Below are positions 16,941-27,056 of a stretch of 64,000 nt of DNA, in pieces; positions within the stretch are counted from its first letter, which is position 1, and each line of letters starts with the position of its first letter. The notes beneath the pieces were generated by a model. It did not search any database, was not told where the DNA came from, and saw only the letters and a program-made list of their open reading frames with translations. Position numbers and translations under genes: made by a program. Source of the stretch: an uncultured Litoreibacter sp. (lineage in GTDB: Bacteria; Pseudomonadota; Alphaproteobacteria; Rhodobacterales; Rhodobacteraceae); NCBI GenBank assembly GCA_947501685.1, contig CANMWQ010000001.1:682001-746000 (forward strand), written 5' to 3'.

Positions 16941-17482
16941 TGCGGGCCTGTCTTGATGCCTGTGTGCTGTTCCCGACGGTGCTGCGCGAGGTTCTGACCG
17001 GAGTGGCGGGGCTGGGGCTCTATGACCCGGTCTGGTCGGAGCGTATCCTGGAGGAATGGGCGCGGGCGACGGTCAAGCTGGGCTCTGAGGCCGAGATGCA
17101 GGCGCGGGGCGAGGTGGCGGTGTTGAAGGCGCAGTTTCCAAACGCGTCGGTGCGGCCAAGGGATGGCGACATGGCGCGGCTGCATTTGCCTGACGAGAAT
17201 GACGTGCATGTTCTGGCGGCGGCGATTAGGGGCTCGGCGGATGTGATCGTGACGCTGAACGCCAAGGATTTTCCGCGCCAGCAATTGGCCCATGAGGGCC
17301 TGCGGCGGATGAGCCCGGATGAGTTTTTGATGGATCTCTGGATCGAGACGCCTGCGGCGGTGGAGCAGGTCGTGCGCGAGGTCCATGCCACGGCGCAGCG
17401 GATGATGGGCTCGGACATTGCGCTGCGGGCGCTGATGAAAAAGGCGCGGCTGCCGCGACTGGGCAAAGCGCTTAGCGTGTGA
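16940..17482 (+). CDS. PIN domain protein (RSP_2648 family)
   Basis: The 180-residue protein begins MRACLDACVLFPTVLREVL, with the first acidic metal ligand of a PIN nuclease at Asp6. A second acidic cluster is RLHLPDENDVHVLAAAIRG near residues 78-96, and VIVTLNAKDFP near residue 105 gives the last aspartate. PIN domains are Mg-dependent RNases, often toxins, but no antitoxin gene is adjacent; the partner is an rRNA methyltransferase with which it shares a stop/start overlap. This linkage is conserved in Rhodobacterales and hints at an RNA-processing job rather than a toxin. Its 3' end overlaps the convergent protease gene by 11 bases. Confidence 0.85.
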   Translation: MRACLDACVLFPTVLREVLTGVAGLGLYDPVWSERILEEWARATVKLGSEAEMQARGEVAVLKAQFPNASVRPRDGDMARLHLPDENDVHVLAAAIRGSADVIVTLNAKDFPRQQLAHEGLRRMSPDEFLMDLWIETPAAVEQVVREVHATAQRMMGSDIALRALMKKARLPRLGKALSV

Positions 17483-18161
17483 CGCCCCATTTGGCCTCGT
17501 TGGCCTCAATCGCGGCGATACGGTCTACGGTCTTGGGGTGGCTCATCATCCAGGCCGGCGGCGTGGCCCCTCTGGCACCTGACAGTTTTTCGAGCTTGGC
17601 AAAGAGCGTCTTTTGCGGCCCCGTGCCGATCCCTGCCTTTGTCAAAAGCGCGGAGGCATAGGCGTCGGCCTCATATTCATCCTGGCGCGAGAGCCGTGCG
17701 GCCAGCATCGAGGTGAGTATATTGGCCAGCCACATGCCCGCGAACGGGATCAGGCGACCGAGAATGGTGCCCAGCACCAGACGGATGGCGTTCTGGCCGG
17801 AGAAATCAATCATCCGACGACGCGAATGGCCCAAGGCCACATGACCGAGCTCATGGGCGATGACGGAGGCCAGCTCCTCGGCGGTGACCTCGCCGGCTTT
17901 ATACTTCTTATAGAAGCCCCGCGTGATGAAGATGCGGCCGTCGGGGGCGGCCAGCCCGTTGACCGGAGCGACCTCATAGATATGCACCTTGATCTGGTCG
18001 ATCTCCAGCGCGCGCGCCATGTCGCGGTTCATCTGCTCCAGCGTCGGATCGGCCAGCCGGGAGGAGTTCTGATCCAGCGCCCGCTTCGTATTCCAAGCAG
18101 AGAAGCGGTACATGGCCAGCCCGTAAAGGACCATCAGCAAGAGAGGCGCGAGTTTGAACAT
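17472..18161 (-). CDS. M48 family metalloprotease (HtpX-like)
   Basis: The 229-residue protein starts with a membrane anchor (residues 1-19) and carries the zinc motif VIAHELGHVALGH near residues 100-112, with the third ligand in RQDEYEADAYA near residue 160. A hydrophobic segment AIRLVLGTILGRLIPFAGMWL lies between them. It is shorter than HtpX (about 290) and lacks its N-terminal four-helix layout, so it is a minimal M48 peptidase, probably acting on membrane or periplasmic-face proteins. It is convergent with the PIN gene. Confidence 0.88.
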   Translation of the reverse strand: MFKLAPLLLMVLYGLAMYRFSAWNTKRALDQNSSRLADPTLEQMNRDMARALEIDQIKVHIYEVAPVNGLAAPDGRIFITRGFYKKYKAGEVTAEELASVIAHELGHVALGHSRRRMIDFSGQNAIRLVLGTILGRLIPFAGMWLANILTSMLAARLSRQDEYEADAYASALLTKAGIGTGPQKTLFAKLEKLSGARGATPPAWMMSHPKTVDRIAAIEANEAKWGVTR

Positions 18162-18314
18162 GGGATAGATATGGGGCGGCCGGGCGCGTTAATCAAACGC
18201 AATCAAACGGAAAGCCTTCGGCTTGCGGTTTTGTTTTGCGCCCTGCGGGCGGGCTGGCGGAGAGGGTATGGGCTTGCCTGCGGGGTTAGCGCGGGTTGTG
18301 GGACCTGAGTCGGG

Positions 18315-18338
18315 CATATTTTTGCCAAGATGAAGCGG
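18315..18338 (+). repeat. Dispersed intergenic repeat, copy 5
   Basis: CATATTTTTGCCAAGATG followed by AAGCGG is another tail-type copy. It lies about 23 bases before the first CTCAC operator-like motif of the duplicated locus. The rest of 18162-18360 is GC-rich non-coding DNA with no recognisable gene. Confidence 0.5.
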
Positions 18339-18360
18339 GTTTTGCGGTCTGTTTCAGCGA

Positions 18361-18582
18361 TCTCACGCGCTGTGAGGGCTTTCTCACGGCGGCGTGTGGG
18401 TGTCGGCTGCTGCGCGCAAGAATATGTGCGTGAGCGCACTTATCTCACACGAAAGACAGTCGATGTGCGTTGAGAGGGGGCGTTGGAGGGTGCATATTGG
18501 TTTCATCAAACGGCAACACCCCGCCGGACACACACAAGCCCAGCCAATACGGCAAACGGGCAAACACAAACTGGAGACTAAC
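18361..18582 (+). promoter_or_regulatory. Long conserved leader A with CTCAC-N5-GTGAG palindrome
   Basis: This leader is matched closely by a second copy at 23711-23931. It opens with CTCAC-GCGCT-GTGAG (18362-18376), followed by further CTCAC words at 18383 and 18443 and by the inverted repeat GTGCG-TGAG-CGCAC at 18426-18439. The longest exact blocks are TATCTCACACGAAAGACAG and the stretch from about 18461 to 18530. Such conservation across non-coding DNA suggests a promoter with several operator sites, possibly plus a structured 5' UTR. The regulator is unknown. Confidence 0.6.
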
Positions 18583-18876
18583 ATGAAAAAGATCATCGCA
18601 ACTGCACTCGTATCCCTGTCCCTCGTAGCCCCTGCTGCTGCTGACACGGCCATCCAGCAATTCTTCGCCCTGACAAATGACAGCGCCGCTGAGCGCATCG
18701 TTGGCGAAACTTCGGTAGGTGACCCGGTTGGCACTGCCCAAGAACTGGCGCTCGTCAATGACAGCCCTGCCGAGAACACTGTGAACTTTGAACGCGCTCG
18801 GAACGTTGACGTCAAAGCGATCCAGAGAACCTTCGCACTGACCAACGACTCGCCTGCCGAGAACATCGTTCGCTAA
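18583..18876 (+). CDS. Small secreted protein with three NDSxAE repeats, copy A
   Basis: The 97-residue product has a Sec signal peptide (residues 1-20, cleavage after PAAA). The mature part consists of three repeats of the pattern [FL]-A-L-[TV]-N-D-S-x-A-E-x-x-V at residues 28-40, 55-67 and 84-96. There are no cysteines and no membrane segment after cleavage, so it is probably periplasmic or exported. GGAG seven bases before the ATG serves as ribosome site. A copy 92/97 identical lies 5.35 kb downstream at 23932. I do not recognise the family and assign no function. A rho-independent terminator follows. Confidence 0.75.
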   Translation: MKKIIATALVSLSLVAPAAADTAIQQFFALTNDSAAERIVGETSVGDPVGTAQELALVNDSPAENTVNFERARNVDVKAIQRTFALTNDSPAENIVR

Positions 18877-18914
18877 GACCCCTCTCGCTGACCGCGAGAC
18901 CCGGATACAAACTG

Positions 18915-18950
18915 AAACGGCCTTCCTTTTAGCGAGGAGGGCCGTTTTTC
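18915..18950 (+). terminator. Rho-independent terminator after copy A
   Basis: AAACGGCC and GGCCGTTTTT pair around the segment TTCCTTTTAGCGAGGA, with an extra partial stem inside and a run of five T after it. It begins about 38 bases after the stop codon. Confidence 0.8.
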
Positions 18951-19003
18951 ATTGTCTTGCCACTGGGCATCGGGAAGACTGTGGGGTGAGAGGGGACCGC
19001 AAC

Positions 19004-19246
19004 ATGGCCATCACCATCACTGCCATTATTCTGGTGCTTTATGCGGTCTGGGCATGGCGGAGGAAAGGGGGTCCCTCCGACGCGCGTGCGAAGAAACCTG
19101 CCAAGAAAGCCTGCAAATGGGAGACAACCGGCCACAGCAAAGGGCGGTTTGTCGAGTTTCGTTGCGCGACCTGCGGGGTCAGCGCGATGCCGCATACCGG
19201 CAAGGCACCGGTGGATTGCAAGAGCACTCTGTCGCGGCCTAACTGA
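19004..19246 (+). CDS. Small membrane-anchored protein with a cysteine-rich C-terminal part
   Basis: The 80-residue product begins with a hydrophobic helix (MAITITAIILVLYAVWAW, residues 1-18) followed by a strongly basic linker. Its C-terminal half has four cysteines: CKW near residue 38, FRCATCG near residues 55-58 and VDCK near residue 72. The spacing suggests a small zinc ribbon on the cytoplasmic side. The start ATG follows GAGAGGGGACC. Its last eight bases overlap the stop of convergent pyrF. I do not recognise the family. Confidence 0.6.
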   Translation: MAITITAIILVLYAVWAWRRKGGPSDARAKKPAKKACKWETTGHSKGRFVEFRCATCGVSAMPHTGKAPVDCKSTLSRPN

Positions 19247-19940
19247 GCTCGGACAGGATGGCCTGTGCGGCCTCGACCGGTGAGGGGGCTTTCACGATGG
19301 GGCGTCCGACCACGATATGATCGGCCCCGTTTGCGATGGCTTGAGAGGGCGTTGCGATCCGTTTCTGATCGCCCACATCTGAGCCTGTCGGGCGCACGCC
19401 GGGGGTGACGATCAGACGGCCTTTGCTTTCAGACAAGGCCCGTATGCCGCGTGCTTCCTGAGGGGAGGCGATGACACCATCTGCGCCTGCGTCAAAGGCT
19501 TTTGCGGCGCGTTCCAGCACCAGCTCTTCCATATCGCCGTTGCGGATCAGCCCTGCGTCGAGATCGGCCCGGTTCAGGGAGGTCAGGATGGTGACGGCAA
19601 GAATTTTCAAATCTGTCCCCGCCGCGCCTTCTTTGGCGGCGCGCACCACATGCGTATCGCCATGGACCGTTAGAAAATCGAGATCGAACTGGCTCAGGCC
19701 GCGCACCGCGTTTTCGACCGTGTTGCCGATATCAAACAGCTTCATATCCAGAAAAATGCGCTTGCCATGTTCCTGTTTCAGCTCATTGGCCAGCGCCAGC
19801 CCGCCGCCGGTCAGCATGCCGAGGCCGATCTTGTAAAATGACACCGCGCTGCCGAGGCTCTCGGCGATCTCTAGGCCCTTCAGCGCGTTTGGAACGTCGA
19901 GGGCAACGATGAGGCGGTCATCGGTTTGGGCATTTGGCAT
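19239..19940 (-). CDS. pyrF: Orotidine 5'-phosphate decarboxylase
   Basis: The enzyme makes UMP from OMP, the last step of de novo pyrimidine synthesis. The 233 residues form the usual TIM barrel, with IVALDVP near residue 12 (first aspartate), the catalytic array DMKLFDIGNTV near residue 65 (DxKxxD), and VTPGVRPTGSDVGDQKR near residue 180 forming the phosphate loop with VVGRPIV. Length is normal. It is transcribed away from a small hypothetical gene 57 bases upstream on the same strand, which may be its operon partner. Confidence 0.97.
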   Translation of the reverse strand: MPNAQTDDRLIVALDVPNALKGLEIAESLGSAVSFYKIGLGMLTGGGLALANELKQEHGKRIFLDMKLFDIGNTVENAVRGLSQFDLDFLTVHGDTHVVRAAKEGAAGTDLKILAVTILTSLNRADLDAGLIRNGDMEELVLERAAKAFDAGADGVIASPQEARGIRALSESKGRLIVTPGVRPTGSDVGDQKRIATPSQAIANGADHIVVGRPIVKAPSPVEAAQAILSELS

Positions 19941-19997
19941 GGCGCAACTCTCCGGGCAGATAGGGTCTGCCCTGATTGCGCGGCCAAGGGGGTAAGG

Positions 19998-20309
19998 TCA
20001 AGCGGCGCGCTGGGTCGAGCTAAAGGTGAAGCTGCGCGACAACTGCCGTGCGAGATCGCCAAGATGTGCAAGCTTTGCTTGGCCTGTTGGGGTCCGAGCG
20101 ACCAGATGCGAGGCGTTGCGGGCGCGTTGCTTTTTCGCCTGCGCCACCAGCTTTTTCGAGACAAAGCTGAAATCGCTGTCAATTGGAAGGCGCAGGGAGG
20201 TTGGGAATTTCAGGTGGTCCGGCCCCTCATGCATCACCACCAGCGCGTCAAAGCTCTGGGTGGCGGCGTTGTAATGCAGGTTCTGGACTTCGATACTGTA
20301 GCTGCTCAT
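19998..20309 (-). CDS. Conserved hypothetical protein upstream of pyrF
   Basis: The 103-residue product has beta-rich sequence at the N-terminus (SYSIEVQNLHYNAATQSFDALVVMHEG) and a basic helix (VSKKLVAQAKKQRARN) further on. There is no signal peptide or membrane segment. AAGGG lies seven bases before the ATG and a promoter-like word TATAAAAA immediately upstream, sharing 14 bases with the tRNA-Pro promoter region. I do not recognise a named domain. The bases from 20310 to 20490 hold no gene. Confidence 0.6.
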   Translation of the reverse strand: MSSYSIEVQNLHYNAATQSFDALVVMHEGPDHLKFPTSLRLPIDSDFSFVSKKLVAQAKKQRARNASHLVARTPTGQAKLAHLGDLARQLSRSFTFSSTQRAA

Positions 20310-20493
20310 GTGACTACCCTTTTTATACGAGTTTTGTGGTCTATTGATCTAACTCTACGCGCGTCGATTTGGTTTCATAGGGGGGCTCGCGCAGCTGTGA
20401 GAGGCAGCGATCATTCGTGATCCGGCCTGCATTTGCGCAGATCAGCCGCTTTGCCCGCCGATAAGGAGCTCGATAATTTACGCAGGCTGCACC

Positions 20494-20522
20494 CTTGCGC
20501 AGGCACGGTGCGGTTTCCATAT
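20494..20522 (+). promoter_or_regulatory. Candidate RpoH (heat-shock) promoter of clpB
   Basis: CCCTTG at the -35 side and CCATAT at the -10 side, with 19 bases between CTTG and CCATAT, resemble the heat-shock sigma-32 consensus (CTTGAA and CCCATnT). It ends 79 bases before the clpB start. clpB is under RpoH control in nearly all proteobacteria, which supports the reading, but the spacing is one base long. Confidence 0.45.
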
Positions 20523-20601
20523 CAGGGTCAAGGTTTGCCGACCGAGGGTGCCGCGTGACGGGCCCAGTTTCACAGGCAGATGCTTATAGAAAGGAAATCT
20601 G

Positions 20602-23217
20602 ATGAATTTGGAAAAGTTCACTGAACGGTCCCGCGGCTTTATCCAAGCGGCCCAGACCATTGCGATGCGCGAAGACCATCAGCGTCTTTCGCCCGAACAT
20701 GTGCTCAAAGCGCTGATGGATGACGAGCAAGGCTTGGCGTCCAACCTGATCAGCTCCGCAGGCGGTGCGCCTGCGCGGGTGCTGGAAGCCGTTGATCTGT
20801 CGATTGCCAAGACTGCGAAAGTCTCTGGCGACACGGGCCAGGTCTATCTGGACACACAGACCGGCAAAGTGCTGGCTGAGGCCGAAAAACTGGCCAAGAA
20901 GGCGGGCGACAGCTTCGTGCCAGTAGAGCGCTTGCTGACCGCGCTCTGCATGGTCAAATCGAAAGCGCGTGACGCGCTGGAGGCGGGCGGGGTCTCGGCC
21001 CAAGCGCTCAACGGCGCGATTGAAGACGTGCGCAAGGGGCGCACGGCGGACAGCGCCTCGGCGGAAGACAGCTATGACGCGTTGAAGAAATACGCGATGG
21101 ATCTGACGGAGCGGGCGCGTGAGGGCAAGATTGACCCGATCATCGGCCGTGACGAGGAAATTCGCCGCACGATGCAGGTGCTGTCGCGGCGCACCAAGAA
21201 CAACCCTGTGCTCATAGGTGAGCCGGGCGTTGGTAAAACTGCGATTGCGGAAGGCCTCGCCTTGCGGATCGTGGATGGCGACGTGCCCGAGAGCCTGCGC
21301 AACAAAAAGCTGATGGCGTTGGACATGGGCGCGTTGATTGCAGGGGCCAAGTATCGTGGTGAGTTCGAGGAGCGTCTGAAAGCGATCCTGAATGAGGTCA
21401 CGGATGCGGCGGGCGAGATCATTCTCTTTATTGACGAGATGCACACGCTTGTGGGCGCTGGTAAGGGCGAGGGCGCGATGGATGCGTCGAACCTGCTGAA
21501 ACCTGCGCTGGCGCGCGGTGAGCTGCATTGTGTCGGTGCCACCACGCTGGATGAATACCGCAAACACGTGGAAAAAGACGCGGCGCTCGCGCGGCGGTTC
21601 CAGCCTGTTCTGGCGGAAGAGCCGACGGTGGAGGACACGATCTCGATCTTGAGGGGCATCAAGGAAAAGTACGAGCTGCATCACGGGGTGCGGATCAGTG
21701 ACAGCGCCTTGGTGGCGGCGGCTACCTTGTCGCACCGCTATATTACGGACCGCTTCCTGCCAGATAAGGCAATTGACCTGATGGACGAGGCCGCCAGCCG
21801 CTTGCGGATGGAAGTGGACAGCAAACCTGAAGAGCTGGACGCGCTGGATCGCCAGATCATGCAGTTGCAGATCGAGGAAGTGGCGCTGTCGAAGGAAGAC
21901 GACGCGGCCTCGAAAGATCGGTTGGAGGCTTTGCAGAAGGAGCTGGCCGATTTGCAGGAGAAGTCGTCTGAGATGACGGCACGCTGGCAGTCGGAGCGCG
22001 ACAAGCTGGAAGGCGCGCGTGAGCTGAAGGAGCAACTCGACCGTTCGCGGGCCGAGCTGGATATTGCCAAACGCGAAGGCAACCTCGCCAAGGCGGGGGA
22101 GCTGTCCTACGGCGTGATCCCGGAGCTGGAGAAGAAACTGGCGGAGGCCGAAGCCTCGGAAGGCGACGTTGTGGTCGAGGAGGCCGTGCGCCCAGAGCAG
22201 ATCGCGCAAGTGGTCGAGCGCTGGACCGGCATCCCAACCTCGAAAATGCTGGAAGGCGAACGCGACAAGCTGCTGCGGATGGAAGACGCCATCGGCAAAC
22301 GTGTGATCGGGCAGCGTCAGGCCGTGACCTCCGTGGCCAACGCGGTGCGCCGCGCGCGGGCAGGGCTCAACGACGAGAACCGGCCTTTGGGCAGCTTCTT
22401 GTTTCTGGGGCCAACTGGCGTGGGCAAAACCGAGCTGACCAAGGCCGTGGCGGAGTTCCTCTTTGACGATGACAGCGCCATGGTGCGTATTGATATGTCG
22501 GAGTTCATGGAGAAACACGCGGTGTCACGCCTAATCGGCGCGCCTCCGGGCTATGTGGGCTATGACGAGGGTGGCGTGCTGACCGAGGCTGTGCGGCGCA
22601 GGCCCTATCAGGTGGTGCTGTTCGACGAGGTCGAGAAGGCGCACCCGGATGTGTTCAACGTGTTGTTGCAGGTGCTTGATGACGGTATGCTGACCGACGG
22701 TCAGGGCCGCACCGTGGATTTCAAGCAGACGCTGATCATCCTGACGTCCAACCTGGGCGCGCAGGCGCTGAGCCAGCTGCCTGAGAACGCCGACAGCTCG
22801 GACGCGAAGCGCGATGTGATGGACGCGGTCCGCGCCCATTTCCGGCCGGAATTCCTCAACCGTCTGGACGAGACGATCATCTTTGATCGGCTTGCCCGTG
22901 ACGACATGGCGGGCATCGTGGATATCCAGCTGGCGCAGCTGGACAGGCGGCTGGCATCGCGCAAGATCACGCTTGATCTTGATGACGGCGCGCGCAAATG
23001 GCTGGCCGATGAGGGCTATGACCCGGTCTTTGGGGCCCGGCCCCTGAAACGCGTGATCCAACGGGCTTTGCAGGATCAACTGGCTGAGATGATCTTAGCG
23101 GGTGACGTGCTGGACGGCTCAACCATCGAGGTTAGCGCTGGCGCGGACGGACTGATCGTGGGCGACCGCGTCGCGGCCTCCAACAGGCCCAAACCGGATG
23201 ACGCAGTGGTTCACTAA
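20602..23217 (+). CDS. clpB: ATP-dependent chaperone ClpB
   Basis: ClpB is a hexameric AAA+ disaggregase that works with DnaK to recover aggregated proteins. The 871 residues include the N-terminal repeat domain, Walker A of the first ATPase (GEPGVGKTA near residue 206), Walker [17 protein letters not shown], a middle coiled-coil domain of about 120 residues (roughly 405-525), and the second Walker A (GPTGVGKTE near residue 604) with [15 protein letters not shown]. The middle domain distinguishes it from ClpA and ClpC. AAAGGAAATCTG gives the ribosome site. A terminator follows at once. Confidence 0.98.
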
Positions 23218-23236
23218 GTCGCATGTATAGAGTGAA

Positions 23237-23261
23237 GGCCGGGTCTTGCGCCCGGCCTTTT
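23237..23261 (+). terminator. Rho-independent terminator after clpB
   Basis: GGCCGGG and CCCGGCC form a perfect 7-bp stem with loop TCTTGCG and a TTTT tail, 20 bases after the clpB stop. Confidence 0.85.
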
Positions 23262-23279
23262 CGCATTGAATGGTCGGGT

Positions 23280-23645
23280 ATGACCAAACTCACGGCCCTT
23301 ATGGCGTTGGCGCAGTCTGTCTCTATTGCTGGGGTATCCCTCCTCTGGCCGTTTCTTCTGGTGATGCTCGTCTACTTCGGCAGCCTATCTATGAGAGTCG
23401 CTGCGTCTTTCATTCCGGTAATTGCGGCCTTCATTTTTGTAGTCGGTCTGATGAATAGCTGGATAGAGGGTGCGACATGGCGTTGGGCTGTGCCGCTCTT
23501 TGTGGTGAGCTGGCTTGCCCTGCTGGGCGGGCACAAGATCGAAGGACGGGTTCCGTCGGTTTTTCAGAACCCCAACCTCGTTTTTGTTGGGCCCGTCTGG
23601 TTGATGCGCCGAATTTTCCGGCGGTTGGGTCTTTCCGACCCCTAA
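23280..23645 (+). CDS. Small polytopic membrane protein, unknown function
   Basis: The 121-residue product has three or four hydrophobic segments (about residues 12-35, 38-62 and 72-90) and a basic C-terminus MRRIFRRLGLSDP. The start ATG lies just after the clpB terminator; a longer frame begins before the hairpin and is not credible. No named family is recognised. Codon use is slightly less GC-rich than the neighbours. It lies within the segment flanked by the two copies of the NDSxAE protein. Confidence 0.6.
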   Translation: MTKLTALMALAQSVSIAGVSLLWPFLLVMLVYFGSLSMRVAASFIPVIAAFIFVVGLMNSWIEGATWRWAVPLFVVSWLALLGGHKIEGRVPSVFQNPNLVFVGPVWLMRRIFRRLGLSDP

Positions 23646-23710
23646 AGACTACGGGACTTACGACTCGATTCTGGGACCTTTGGGGGCGGTTGAGAGAATT
23701 GTGACAGCCT

Positions 23711-23931
23711 TCTCACGCGATGTGAGTGCGATCTCACGGTGGCGTGTGGGTGTCGTCCATCCCGCACCAAGATATGTGCATCGACGCACCTATCTCACAC
23801 GAAAGACAGTCGATGTGCGTTGAGAGGGCGCGTTGGAGGGTGCATATTAGTCTCATCAAACGGCAACACACCGCCGCACACACAACGCCCCGCCAAGACG
23901 GCAAACGGGCAAACACAAACTGGAGACTAAC
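23711..23931 (+). promoter_or_regulatory. Long conserved leader B with CTCAC-N5-GTGAG palindrome
   Basis: This is the counterpart of the leader at 18361-18582. CTCAC-GCGAT-GTGAG lies at 23712-23726, another ATCTCACGG at 23731, and TATCTCACACGAAAGACAG at about 23791. Most of the roughly 130 bases before the start codon match copy A. Substitutions cluster in one block around 23755-23785, so the two flanking parts appear to be under constraint. Confidence 0.6.
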
Positions 23932-24225
23932 ATGAAAAAGATCATCGCAACCGCACTCGTATCCCTGTCCTTCGCCGCTCCTGCTGCTGCTGACACTGCC
24001 ATCCAGCAATTCTTCGCCCTGACAAATGACAGCGCCGCTGAGCGCATCGTCGGCGAAACTTCTGTAGGTGACCCCGTTGGCACAGCCCAAGAGCTGGCGC
24101 TGGTAAATGACAGCCCTGCCGAAAACACTGTGAACTTTGACCGCGCTCGTAACGTGGACGTTAAAGCGATCCAGAAAATCTTCGCATTGACCAACGACTC
24201 GCCTGCCGAGAACATCGTTCGCTAA
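23932..24225 (+). CDS. Small secreted protein with three NDSxAE repeats, copy B
   Basis: This 97-residue paralogue differs from copy A at five positions only: Leu14Phe, Val15Ala, Glu70Asp, Arg82Lys and Thr83Ile. All three NDSxAE repeats are unchanged. The signal peptide is kept (cleavage after PAAA). Ribosome site and leader are also conserved. Since the protein and its leader are both duplicated and both free of frameshifts, both genes are probably expressed. Function is unknown. A stem-loop terminator follows that can also serve the convergent VWA gene. Confidence 0.75.
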   Translation: MKKIIATALVSLSFAAPAAADTAIQQFFALTNDSAAERIVGETSVGDPVGTAQELALVNDSPAENTVNFDRARNVDVKAIQKIFALTNDSPAENIVR

Positions 24226-24263
24226 GGCAACCTAACCCCGTCTGCTTCCCCCCAGACGCAAAA

Positions 24264-24298
24264 CGGCCCCTCTGATAATGAGATCAGGGGGGTTGTTT
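24264..24298. terminator. Bidirectional terminator between copy B and the VWA gene
   Basis: GGCCCCTCTGAT and ATCAGGGGGG pair around the loop AATGAG. Plus-strand transcripts meet TTGTTT after the stem and minus-strand transcripts meet GTTTTG. It lies between two convergent genes. Confidence 0.7.
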
Positions 24299-24302
24299 GC
24301 GT

Positions 24303-25490
24303 TTAGCGGCTCAAAAGGCGCATGCCACGGTCAATGCCGTTCAAGGTCATGGGCACCATGCGGTCCGCACCGAAAATGCTTTGGATCATCTGGGTGGATT
24401 GGGTGTGCCGCCAATAGCGTTCATCGAGCGGGTTGATCCACAGGTTTGACGGCCATTGGTCGCGCGCGCGCCGCAGCCAGACCTCGCCAGCTTCGGCGTT
24501 CCAATGCTCATTCGCACCGCCCGGATAGGCGACCTCGTAAGGGCTCATGGAGGCGTCGCCCACAAAGATAGATTTATAATCCGGCCCGAAGGTGCGCAGC
24601 AATTCCCAGGTTTCGATCTGCTCGGACCAGCGGCGTTTGTTGTCGGTCCAGACGCCCTCGTAGAGGCAGTTGTGAAAATAGTAGTGCTTGAGGTGTTTGA
24701 ACTCCGTTTTGGCAGCAGAGAACAGCTCTTCGACGAGCTTGATATGCGGGTCCATTGAGCCGCCGACGTCCAGAAACAGCACTACTTTGACCGCGTTGCG
24801 CCGCTCGGGCCGAGTTTTGACGTCGAGATAGCCGTTCTCCGCGGTGGCGCGGATGGTGCCGCTGAGGTCAAGCTCGTCGGCGGCGCCATCCCGCGCCCAA
24901 CGGCGCAGGCGTTTCAGGGCCACTTTGATGTTGCGGGTGCCTAGCTCCGTATTGCCGTCGAGGTCGCGAAACTCGCGCTTGTCCCAGACTTTGACGGCGC
25001 GCTGATGGCGGCTTTCATGCTGCCCGATGCGCACGCCCTCGGGGTTGTAGCCGTAAGCCCCAAACGGTGACGTGCCCGCCGTGCCGATCCACTTGCTGCC
25101 GCCCTGATGGCGCTTTTCCTGCTCTTTGAGGCGCTGTTTGAGCGTCTCCATCAGCTTGTCAAACCCGCCCAAAGCCTCGATCTCGGCCCGTTCTTCCGCG
25201 CTGAGATGCTTTTCGGCGAGCTTTTCGATCCAGTCCTGAGGGATGTCCACGGCCTCCAGCATCTCGCCCGCGTCGATATGCTCTAACCCTTCAAAAGTGG
25301 CGGCGAAGGCGCGGTCGAACCGGTCGAGATGGCGCTCGTCTTTGACCATTGTGGTGCGGGCAAAATAGTAAAACCCGTCCAGATCATAGGTCACCAGCCC
25401 GGCGCGCAGCCCCTCAAGGAAAGACAGATATTCACGCAAGGAGACCGGAAGTTTCGCGCCGCGCAGGTTCTCAAAGAAGCGCAGAAACAT
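24303..25490 (-). CDS. VWA domain protein (CoxE-like)
   Basis: The 395-residue protein has a helical N-terminal region and a C-terminal von Willebrand A domain of the CoxE type. The MIDAS metal motif is VVLFLDVGGSMDPH near residue 245 (DxGxS), and the later acidic site is in TFGPDYKSIFVGDASMSPYEV near residue 318. Such proteins work with MoxR AAA+ ATPases to insert metal ions or assemble complexes. A MoxR gene lies 2 kb upstream at the head of the same minus-strand run, so the two are likely partners. In Rhodobacterales this pair is common and without a proven target. Confidence 0.9.
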   Translation of the reverse strand: MFLRFFENLRGAKLPVSLREYLSFLEGLRAGLVTYDLDGFYYFARTTMVKDERHLDRFDRAFAATFEGLEHIDAGEMLEAVDIPQDWIEKLAEKHLSAEERAEIEALGGFDKLMETLKQRLKEQEKRHQGGSKWIGTAGTSPFGAYGYNPEGVRIGQHESRHQRAVKVWDKREFRDLDGNTELGTRNIKVALKRLRRWARDGAADELDLSGTIRATAENGYLDVKTRPERRNAVKVVLFLDVGGSMDPHIKLVEELFSAAKTEFKHLKHYYFHNCLYEGVWTDNKRRWSEQIETWELLRTFGPDYKSIFVGDASMSPYEVAYPGGANEHWNAEAGEVWLRRARDQWPSNLWINPLDERYWRHTQSTQMIQSIFGADRMVPMTLNGIDRGMRLLSR

Positions 25491-25496
25491 CTGAGG

Positions 25497-25667
25497 TCAG
25501 ACCGCTTGGCGGGCCACAAAGATGGCCACGAAAAGAGCGACGAACCCAAAAGCCACGCCATAGCCAACCGCATATTGCGCGATGTCCTTCTTGTTGCCGC
25601 CGCGGCGGGCCATGACGGTGCCGCCGACAATAGCGCCCAGCAAAGCCCCGATCAGAAAGCCAGTCAT
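25497..25667 (-). CDS. Small two-helix membrane protein in the MoxR-VWA run
   Basis: The 56-residue product has two hydrophobic helices (MTGFLIGALLGAIVGGTVM and YGVAFGFVALFVAIFVA) linked by a basic turn RRGGNKKDI. It sits six bases from the VWA start and nine bases from the upstream gene's stop, all on the same strand. It is too short for standard calling. I recognise no family; a membrane adaptor role with the MoxR-VWA pair is possible but only inferred from position. Confidence 0.65.
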   Translation of the reverse strand: MTGFLIGALLGAIVGGTVMARRGGNKKDIAQYAVGYGVAFGFVALFVAIFVARQAV

Positions 25668-25676
25668 TTCAGTGTC

Positions 25677-27056
25677 TTATCCTTGCCTTGGGGTCAGCGC
25701 GCTGATCTCGCTCAGCCGCGCACGCACATTTGCATCCGAACCAAATCCATAGCGGCCCCAGCCCAGCGCGTCCAGCCGAACCGCCCGTGCCTCATCGCCG
25801 CGCCCCATCGCGTCAAGGGCCTGTGCCTTGATCATAAGCAGGGTCGCCAAAAGGGCCGCGTTTTCCCCGTTGCGCGCGGCTGGGATGGCCTCATCGGTCA
25901 TTTTGACGGCCGTCTCATACTGCCCCGATGACAGCGCAAAGGCGGCCATTTGCGTGGCCACATGCGCGGCCTGCACCGAACTGCCGTAGAGCTCGCGGTA
26001 GAGCCTGCCCGATTCCACGAAGGAAGAGATCGCAAGCTGTGGTTTCTGGCCCAACGTCACCCGGCCTTGCACGAAAAGCGAGAAGGCGAGGCGGTTGTCG
26101 GTCCATCCCTCTACCTGCGCGATGCGCACGGCCTCCGCCGCCAATTCCGCGCGTTTGGCGGGCGGGACACGCGGGCCCAAGGCCTGCGTGATTGTCTGGT
26201 TCCACGCCTGCGGCGTTGCGGACACGACCCCTTGGGCGCCTTTCTGCCCGGCAGGGTTGATCCGCGCAAACAAGGCCGGAAGCGCTGCGCGGGCCTCCGC
26301 GCGGGACATGCCGTTGCGCAGCTCGGGCGCGTAATAGGCCCGCAGGATCAGCATGTCGAACCCGGTCAGGACGGTGTGGAAATTGTCGTCGTTGAAGATC
26401 GAATTTGGCAGCCGATACAGATCATTGAGCGGCCCCAAAGCCTGCGCCACCTCTTCATGCAGGCAATCGCGCACCTCTTGCGGAGAGACGTCGGACGGAA
26501 TGATGATCGTGGCGCGTTTGCGTTGAGCCAGTTTGGACCAATCCGTGCTGCCCCGGTTGCGGTTCTTGCGAAACTCTTTCCATCCGGAGACATTTGGCAC
26601 CACGAAACACGCGGCCTGCGGCACGGCGCGTTGCAGCGCTTTGCGCGGCACCGGATCGATGATGATCTCGGCATCTTCACCCGGCTTAGCACGGGCGATG
26701 TCGATCCCGGCCTCCCGACGCAGCCGGATAATCAGTTGCGACAGATCGAACTCAAGGCTGGCTGGCGCACGGCCAATCACGCCGACCCGCACGGGGCCGC
26801 TAAACCGTGTCATGAAGGGCAGGGCGCGCCCGCTTTCCATCTGAAAGGACAGCTCCAGAAAATCCTCGACCAGCTCCGCGTTGGAGCGCGCGCTGGGGGC
26901 CGCTTCACGTGCGGAAAAGCTTTTCATCGGCGGCAGGTCCGGGCTTTGCGCCGCGCGCGAGGCCACTTCGCTCAACGAGGAGGGAGCACAGGCTGCCAGC
27001 CCCATGACGGATGCCAGAAGCACAGAACGCAGAATCAGAGACCTTGGACGACGCAT
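25677..27056 (-). CDS. DUF2927 domain lipoprotein
   Basis: The 459-residue protein begins with a lipoprotein signal (SVLLASVMGLAAC, lipid on Cys23). The central region contains the DUF2927 hallmark DCLHEEVAQALGPLNDLYRLPNS near residues 197-219, where HEE plus the following aspartate looks like a degenerate zinc-protease site. The C-terminal 170 residues are helical and TPR-like. It is probably anchored to a membrane on the periplasmic side. It lies between the GNAT and small membrane genes with gaps of under ten bases, so it shares their operon. The function is unknown. Confidence 0.85.
   Translation of the reverse strand: MRRPRSLILRSVLLASVMGLAACAPSSLSEVASRAAQSPDLPPMKSFSAREAAPSARSNAELVEDFLELSFQMESGRALPFMTRFSGPVRVGVIGRAPASLEFDLSQLIIRLRREAGIDIARAKPGEDAEIIIDPVPRKALQRAVPQAACFVVPNVSGWKEFRKNRNRGSTDWSKLAQRKRATIIIPSDVSPQEVRDCLHEEVAQALGPLNDLYRLPNSIFNDDNFHTVLTGFDMLILRAYYAPELRNGMSRAEARAALPALFARINPAGQKGAQGVVSATPQAWNQTITQALGPRVPPAKRAELAAEAVRIAQVEGWTDNRLAFSLFVQGRVTLGQKPQLAISSFVESGRLYRELYGSSVQAAHVATQMAAFALSSGQYETAVKMTDEAIPAARNGENAALLATLLMIKAQALDAMGRGDEARAVRLDALGWGRYGFGSDANVRARLSEISALTPRQG

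Follow-up and report, generated by a model that had tools for sequence, protein, structure and literature searches.

Twin genes for a repeat-bearing, putatively exported protein belong to a multicopy cassette family in Litoreibacter

Two genes for nearly identical 97-residue proteins stand on either side of pyrF and clpB in a 64,000-nucleotide stretch of an uncultured Litoreibacter sp. contig (the window), which raises the question of what the proteins are and how two copies came to flank these genes. We propose, at a rough probability of 45%, that the twins are members of a Sec-exported family, for the most part restricted to the genus and carried as whole cassettes, whose copies would provide a coordinated dose of protein, protect the envelope and allow gene modules to be relocated. 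Each cassette would comprise an operator, a sigma70-type promoter, a leader with a 5′ hairpin, the coding sequence and a 3′ hairpin or terminator.

The twin genes and their family

The two ORFs (18583–18876 and 23932–24225, plus strand) start 5349 bp apart, and their products differ at 5 of 97 residues. Each mature chain holds three NDSxAE units, FALTNDSAAERIV, LALVNDSPAENTV and FALTNDSPAENIV, and export is predicted from the Sec-type N-terminus (MKKIIATALVSLS..APAAA/D). The repeated DNA falls into two blocks, 18350–18534 with 23700–23884 (84% identical) and 18538–18837 with 23887–24186 (93%). No further direct repeat of at least 30 nt was found within 17000–26000, so the DNA between the twins is single copy there. 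The first-pass annotation had described two 97-residue genes about 5.35 kb apart with five differences, three repeat units per mature protein and some 200 conserved bases of leader, and had argued against a simple large tandem duplication. Comparison of the ORFs and repeats confirmed the gene pair and the units in both chains, placed the leaders inside the repeated blocks of both copies and, given the single-copy DNA between them, agreed with the last point. Selection between the copies, as read from 16 synonymous and 5 nonsynonymous substitutions, is purifying (dN/dS 0.09), and the neutral pattern that the annotation had named, together with the absence of any homologue or transcript, as refuting its proposal is not the case.

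The annotation had also recognized no known family and suggested a count of copies. Sequence searches of Pfam, NCBIfam, PHROG, PADLOC and PDB likewise returned no family, and a search of the source genome found nine members, the twins being two of these (weakest match E = 0.002 by sequence search and 5.6e-12 with a profile). Since further copies lie elsewhere in its own genome, the twin similarity is not due to chance. The named relatives come from Litoreibacter (Rhodobacteraceae), to which the family seems largely restricted; one genome of the genus, G011, gave no match. For the repeat alignment and neighbor survey we used 96 members from 16 of 21 genus genomes, with G003, G010 and G019 left out and some others partly included; the neighbor survey also took in the two window copies. 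In Pfam searches at E ≤ 10, neither two subfamily A proteins (the twins) nor two subfamily B proteins had a match, and one subfamily C protein had a single sub-threshold, unrelated match. The CpxP/Spy (LTXXQ) chaperones were considered through their curated profile and set aside on the same result for the A and B proteins. A fold search with low-confidence structure models (pLDDT 57.6 and pTM 0.19 for A; 69.8 and 0.55 for B) gave no usable match. The secreted chain may consist of short helices, each capped by an N-x-S-x-A-E motif. The family looks new, with no described relative found, and an undescribed secreted family with its own operator, wholly or nearly confined to one marine genus, would make both its regulator and its function accessible to simple genetics.

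The methionine-bearing sister subfamily

Clues to function came from subfamily B. A same-strand ORF for MsrB lies 0–284 nt downstream of 14 of the 16 B-type members, and at the one locus checked Pfam assigned it to SelR; A copies are not adjacent to MsrB, and in the genus MsrB genes also occur without a family member beside them. Methionine makes up 6.0% of residues in 15 B members (4.9 per protein) and 4.7% in 12 other non-A members, and in the mature chains of 62 A members its share is 0.6%; it recurs beside the repeats. Because the methionine-bearing sister sits upstream of a secreted MsrB, we propose a periplasmic role in which the protein would protect envelope proteins, and not that of a ligand. 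Of the two roles suggested in the first-pass annotation, a stress peptide thus gains indirect support from the MsrB beside the sister subfamily, while nothing pointed to a surface ligand.

A neighboring explanation, in our judgment unlikely, is that the proteins are a sacrificial oxidant sink like MrpX/BcrX, in which B would be a periplasmic protein whose methionines MsrB recycles and A a form derived from it. The likeness to MrpX/BcrX with MsrP/YedY, namely a small exported protein encoded beside a periplasmic methionine sulfoxide reductase, holds for the B subfamily only; the position of B-type genes before MsrB, the raised methionine content and the MrpX precedent all suit such a sink. However, MrpX/BcrX have MXKDX repeats and MsrPQ, whereas no MXKDX repeat is seen in the alignment and the reductase beside B is MsrB, and the multicopy A form found in the window has almost no methionine and no reductase link. 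For the methionine-rich MXKDX peptide class itself, A falls short in methionine and B, at a raised content, has no MXKDX.

Control region and untranslated elements

Our preferred reading, a family of coordinated cassettes, draws on the DNA around the genes. Upstream of each twin, a genome-wide pattern scan placed two adjacent TCAC..GTGA palindromes, a putative operator (18361–18403 and 23711–23753, plus strand). The pattern TCTCACGN3TGTGAN5TTCTCACG with at most three mismatches has six sites in the source genome, each before one of the six subfamily A copies, the twins' closest group, and the reversed pattern, used as a control, has none; the second palindrome occurs at three sites, all at A copies. 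At the level of sequence patterns, several cassettes per genome are shown to share an operator absent from the other genes of the source genome. With at most two mismatches, a scan of 394 family genomes matched the source genome and one other, the latter within a coding region, and congener G004, with two divergent members, had no site. The twins are two of the six operator-bearing copies. Many copies under one regulator would yield a coordinated dose of the protein.

A sigma70-type promoter, TTGAGA-17-CATATT, was called at 18470–18498 for copy 1 and at 23820–23848 for copy 2 (plus strand). These were the two promoter-like sites called in 18150–24400, one per copy, a count not above chance (1.5 ± 1.1 in shuffles), and it is their positions that carry weight. 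Each copy also has a TGTGC-N6-GCAC box (18425–18439, 45 bp upstream of the –35 element, and 23775–23789; plus strand). Among 94 members with sufficient upstream DNA, the loose cassette pattern was found upstream of 64, 62 of them A and the others one B (L055) and one C (L077). The box is present in 50 of these 64 regions, neither L055 nor L077 being among them, and lies 43–46 bp before the –35 element in 40 of the 50; across the 1.12 Mb of DNA that was fetched, part of it redundant, the box pattern has 109 further or overlapping occurrences in all.

The box presumably resembles the TraR/LuxR box ATGTGC-N6-GCACAT, and one could imagine a signal precursor, with the chain cut at its repeats into NDSxAE density-signal peptides and a LuxR-type regulator binding the box. 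We consider this quite improbable. The presence in the secreted chain of three repeats that are almost identical, the frequency and spacing of the box, LuxI in 21 of 21 genus genomes and peptidase genes (M48, M24) beside some copies would agree with it, but the box was absent from the eight luxI loci scanned, LuxI is also present in G011, which has no family match, the peptidase genes adjoin some copies and not others and have switched partners, and the middle repeat is divergent in part of the genus.

The 5′ untranslated regions (18503–18582, from an inferred transcription start, and 23853–23931; plus strand) contain a hairpin at 18511–18526 (CGGC..GCCG) and 23861–23876, followed in copy 1 by an A/C-rich spacer and the Shine–Dalgarno (SD) sequence CTGGAGA; the family SD is GGAG. 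A stem of at least four pairs was present in 52 of 54 aligned leaders, compared with 2.3 ± 1.4 in mononucleotide shuffles, a figure that overstates independence because the leaders are related sequences and were preselected by a pattern including the left arm GGC (one mismatch); 55 leaders had been found, and one misplaced leader was left out. The stem variants CGGC/GCCG, CAGC/GCTG, AGGC/GCCT and GGGC/GCCC represent compensatory changes, and the hairpin would stabilize the mRNA.

Downstream, an intrinsic terminator was called for copy 1 (18914–18948, plus strand), and copy 2 has a 3′ hairpin (24239–24258, plus strand), absent from copy 1, with an anti-SD-like pyrimidine loop, CUUCCCCC. In a stricter family-wide test requiring CUCC in the predicted loop, neither window copy was positive, and the motif was found in 34 of 71 A copies, where shuffling predicts 8.9, compared with 1 of 27 other members and 4 of 287 control ends of mechanical ORFs of at least 200 codons, not all of which are real genes. 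These sets (98 members in all, none dropped) had L077 removed from A, eight A members added by hand and L055 kept as A. At gathering score, Rfam matched none of the hairpin sites, either in the window or at the five loci covered. The anti-SD hairpin might tune the translation of paralogues or yield a small RNA. A bolder and decidedly unlikely extension is a dispersed, self-homogenizing locus with a dual function, each cassette making both an exported protein and, from its 3′ untranslated region, an anti-SD RNA. This RNA would act on the SD of all sister copies and hold total output steady even as cassettes come and go and serve as docking points for hopping housekeeping modules.

Hardly probable is the reverse emphasis, with the main product an anti-SD small RNA cut from the 3′ untranslated region, much as CcsR RNAs derive from ccaF1, and acting on the SD of paralogues and other mRNAs. 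The excess of CUCC loops in A copies, relative to shuffled sequence, to the other members and to the control ORFs, the GGAG of the family SD and the action of anti-SD motifs in AbcR1/2 are in line with this; yet the loop is missing in 37 of the 71 A copies, the protein sequence is under purifying selection, Rfam has no match at the sites covered, and the motif fits most Shine–Dalgarno sequences, so that specificity is not implied. The alphaproteobacterial ccaF1-CcsR or "cuckoo" loci, in which small RNAs and a terminator come after the small ORF ccaF1, and the anti-SD RNAs AbcR1/2 may be comparable. Anti-SD loops of the CUCC type (for AbcR1/2, CUCCUCCC) would be a further likeness; the CcsR/cuckoo hallmark is a CCUCC-type motif in hairpin loops after the ORF, beside which stands the CUCC of the 34 A copies. 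The family differs from both in its exported protein without a Pfam family, its usually single 3′ hairpin without an Rfam match and its many dispersed paralogues. Sought by its DUF1127 ORF, a CcsR/cuckoo locus was not recognized, both window proteins lacking a Pfam family at E ≤ 10.

Concerted evolution and the pyrF–clpB module

Within genomes, dS in homogenized groups was 0.07–0.31, and across species (G000 vs. G018) it was 0.76, 0.59 and 0.86 at three shared loci and, for comparison, 1.21 in the flanking CoxE. Copies within a genome were closer than same-locus copies across species at three of the five loci common to G000 and G018; homogenization was not seen at the other two, U8-D76 (dS 0.48) and U56-D70 (0.49). 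Judged by these comparisons, the family evolves in concert, with most copies alike within a genome. Codon adaptation of six A copies (0.56–0.73 for the whole gene and 0.62–0.77 for the mature part), set against the references (median 0.59 for 52 window ORFs; 0.67–0.80 for seven translation genes), gives no clear sign of high abundance.

Concerted evolution of multicopy genes and repeat-mediated rearrangement are already known kinds of process: rRNA operons and tuf evolve in concert, and their copies are used as recombination sites. The family shares with them dispersed copies homogenized within a genome and used in recombination, but it encodes a secreted protein that is limited to one lineage and has an operator of its own, and its copies exchange whole modules. 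Gene conversion and homologous recombination would be the processes behind the homogenization and relocation. A selfish cassette spreading by its own means is most improbable: a given site either carries the entire unit or lacks it (the M48–pyrF interval of G018 is without it) and several copies occur per genome, but no recombinase-like gene was seen in the unit, whose ORFs include antisense ones and show family support for the 97-aa gene alone, the flanks are few and recurrent across the genus, and no relative was found in plasmids, phages or viral contigs.

Between the twins lie orf18986, pyrF (–), a 103-aa ORF (–), clpB (+) and an Mpo1-like ORF (+) (18986–23645; Pfam names), which comparison with congeners marks as a relocated module. 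The pyrF–clpB module also stands between two family copies, with different outer flanks, in G006 and in G017, where the Mpo1-like ORF was not detected. The outer flanks of the window, M48 and CoxE, are joined by a single family copy in the two congeners. Sequence comparison with related species shows that genes between two direct copies occur there at another copy pair; family copies are located at rearrangement breakpoints, the twins bound a segment with a changed address, and nearby genes were apparently moved by crossovers at these copies. The locus offers a natural example of protein-gene paralogues, instead of rRNA operons or insertion sequences, at the breakpoints of relocated modules, with both module arrangements preserved in living species.

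Twin genes and the distribution of the family

The window contains two genes (copy 1, 18583–18876; copy 2, 23932–24225; both on the + strand) for predicted exported proteins of 97 residues with five differences between them, as the first-pass annotation had described, and that finding is real and larger than first described. The DNA repeat consists of a leader of ~185 bp at 84% and a further 300 bp at 93%. The copies are separated by 16 synonymous and 5 nonsynonymous differences (dS 0.26, dN 0.023), and the ratio of 0.09 indicates that the protein is under purifying selection.

Nine family matches were found in the genome of the window; six are closely similar to the twin sequences and make up subfamily A, and the other three are more distantly related. 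Across 61 searched genomes, 30 matched at E ≤ 1, and the strong matches all came from the same genus, where a match was found in 20 of 21 genomes (weakly in G007, E 0.26) and none in G011, which is 79% complete; outside the genus, this search gave nothing better than E 0.024. The genus is identified as Litoreibacter by a search of named genomes, which may omit the window's own: 69 of 70 loci carry that label, the remaining one being uncultured Rhodobacteraceae. Profile searches of 295 and 394 Rhodobacteraceae genomes returned a single strong outsider, G143 (E 1.6e-21 and 3.2e-21), other matches outside the genus being short N-terminal ones in a few genomes (the best, in G299, 1.8e-7 over 31 positions). 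Pfam, NCBIfam, PHROGs, PADLOC and PDB sequences gave sub-threshold matches only and assigned no family, and the protein family looks new.

Alignment of 64 members shows invariant positions (M1, A20, A29, N32, A36, G46, S61, E64, A92 and E93) and almost invariant ones (K2, P17, S34, A35, E37, S44, A63 and S90). We divided the members by eye into subfamily A (the window type, three NDSxAE units), the methionine-bearing subfamily B (ELFAMSNxSAAE...) and the smaller C and D. The G004 members (L092, L093) retain the NDSAAE sequence in their first unit and resemble the others in promoter and leader, but their C-terminal half is quite different. In G016, two contigs (L085, L086) terminate within family copies with an identical 74-residue translation, and copy numbers in assemblies may therefore be too low.

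Regulatory region and predicted RNA hairpins

A common −35/−10/leader pattern precedes 64 of 94 members, 62 of these 64 belonging to A. The consensus reads TCTCACGn3TGTGA..TTCTCACG..CGTGA, then a TGTGC-N6-GCAC box and TTGA-N18–21-CATATT, with the leader starting TCATCAAACGGC. In the window's own genome, the operator pattern (≤3 mismatches) occurs at six sites, one at each A copy, and its reversed control at none; the promoter–leader pattern occurs at five, all at A copies. At ≤2 mismatches, a scan of 394 genomes of the bacterial family recovered five own-genome sites and one elsewhere, within a coding region (control pattern, one match); the congener G004, with its two divergent members, had no site at this threshold. 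Two sigma70-like promoters were called in 18150–24400, both belonging to the twins; as this number matches the shuffle expectation (1.5 ± 1.1), the weight rests on their position. A leader stem of at least 4 pairs was found in 52 of 54 leaders, chosen by a pattern that contains the left arm of the stem, versus 2.3 ± 1.4 by mononucleotide shuffling, and its changes between members are compensatory.

A CUCC motif within the loop of a hairpin predicted directly past the stop codon is present in 34 of 71 A copies, where dinucleotide shuffling predicts 8.9; the figure is 1 of 27 for non-A members and 4 of 287 for control ORF ends. In the window, a related 3' loop, CUUCCCCC, is present in copy 2 and absent from copy 1. 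The CUCC loop may base-pair with the family SD, GGAG, to which CUCC is complementary, as it is to most SDs. An anti-SD loop, CUCCUCCC, is described as in use in AbcR1/2 (PMC8844928), and the ccaF1 3' UTR as the source from which CcsR RNAs are cut (PMC10253847, PMC8625941). Copies at the tRNA/N-formylglutamate amidohydrolase site have another 3' element, CAACC-AGATGGA..GGTTG-A-TCCATCT-CCAG, possibly an H-type pseudoknot (L098:5530–5600, with counterparts in L038, L045, L051, L105, L112 and L056); scanning five of its seven loci gave no Rfam match.

Proposed recombination among copies

Within genome G000, four copies are separated by dS of 0.15–0.31, and within G018 two pairs have values of 0.07 and 0.13, whereas copies at a shared locus, compared between the two species, give 0.76, 0.59 and 0.86 at three such loci, and the adjoining CoxE-like gene 1.21. 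From these distances, the copies look older than the species split and homogenized since. Two of five shared loci are exceptions: U56–D70 has dS 0.49 between species and at least 0.93 to paralogues within either genome, and U8–D76 0.48 to its G018 counterpart and 0.78–0.91 to the four similar G000 copies. Concerted evolution has been reported in prokaryotes (PMC6053082), and the genomic behavior of this family is a well-marked variant of one already known from multicopy genes that evolve in concert and are prone to recombination.

The gene order of the window is M48-copy-[pyrF..clpB]-copy-CoxE, the bracketed module occupying 18986–23645. In the REARRANGEMENT gene-order comparison, G006 and G017 have SPFH-copy-[pyrF..clpB]-copy-GltS-like and, at a separate site, M48-copy-CoxE; contig C2 reads SPFH-copy-[M24 peptidase]-copy-GltS-like. 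In G017, the M24 gene is found at a third site with a copy on either side; G000 has one copy alone at that site. An assembly error is an unlikely source of the window order, since the independent G018 assembly has the same arrangement, although without copy 1, its M48–pyrF interval of 415 bp containing orf18986 alone. With the sole exception of this interval, a copy sits at each compared breakpoint, and we infer that homologous recombination was the process behind the rearrangements. Further apparent flank exchanges were seen in family loci on the RibD side. In L081 (G016), two copies are enclosed by the c45 and c61 flanks, an arrangement that might be expected from a reintegrated excised circle; in other loci these flanks face apart across a module.

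MsrB linkage and possible function

Downstream of 14 of 16 B-type members (exceptions L083 and L107) lies an MsrB ORF on the same strand, starting at 0–284 nt as measured on stop-to-stop ORFs. At L154, the single locus tested against Pfam, the MsrB gene is SelR and the divergent neighbor an AraC-type regulator; the MsrB N terminus is twin-arginine-like by eye. Methionine makes up 6.0% of B proteins and 0.6% of the A form. The G143 homologue, the only strong one outside the genus (L209:1501–1812), follows a cupredoxin/CusF gene and precedes transposase-like ORFs; also upstream is the apparent end of a multicopper oxidase (by eye). The MsrB linkage, the methionine of B, the periplasmic address and the cupredoxin/CusF neighbor together suggest protection of the envelope against oxidants or metals, and we favor, with low to moderate confidence, the reading that the family is a protective periplasmic protein under a single shared regulator. 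Against the protective role stand MsrB genes in the genus without a family partner, the low methionine of A, poor structure models and codon adaptation without a clear abundance signal. The nearest precedent is MrpX/BcrX (PMC8315932, PMC4623255), whose MXKDX repeats are not seen in the family alignment.

The MsrB match of G007 (L243), a genome with a weak family match, was reported with four in-frame stops and looks like a pseudogene. Beside an MsrB locus in G003, an ORF on the − strand (L227:922–1302) has a long NKSGKS tandem repeat after a TAT-like N terminus.
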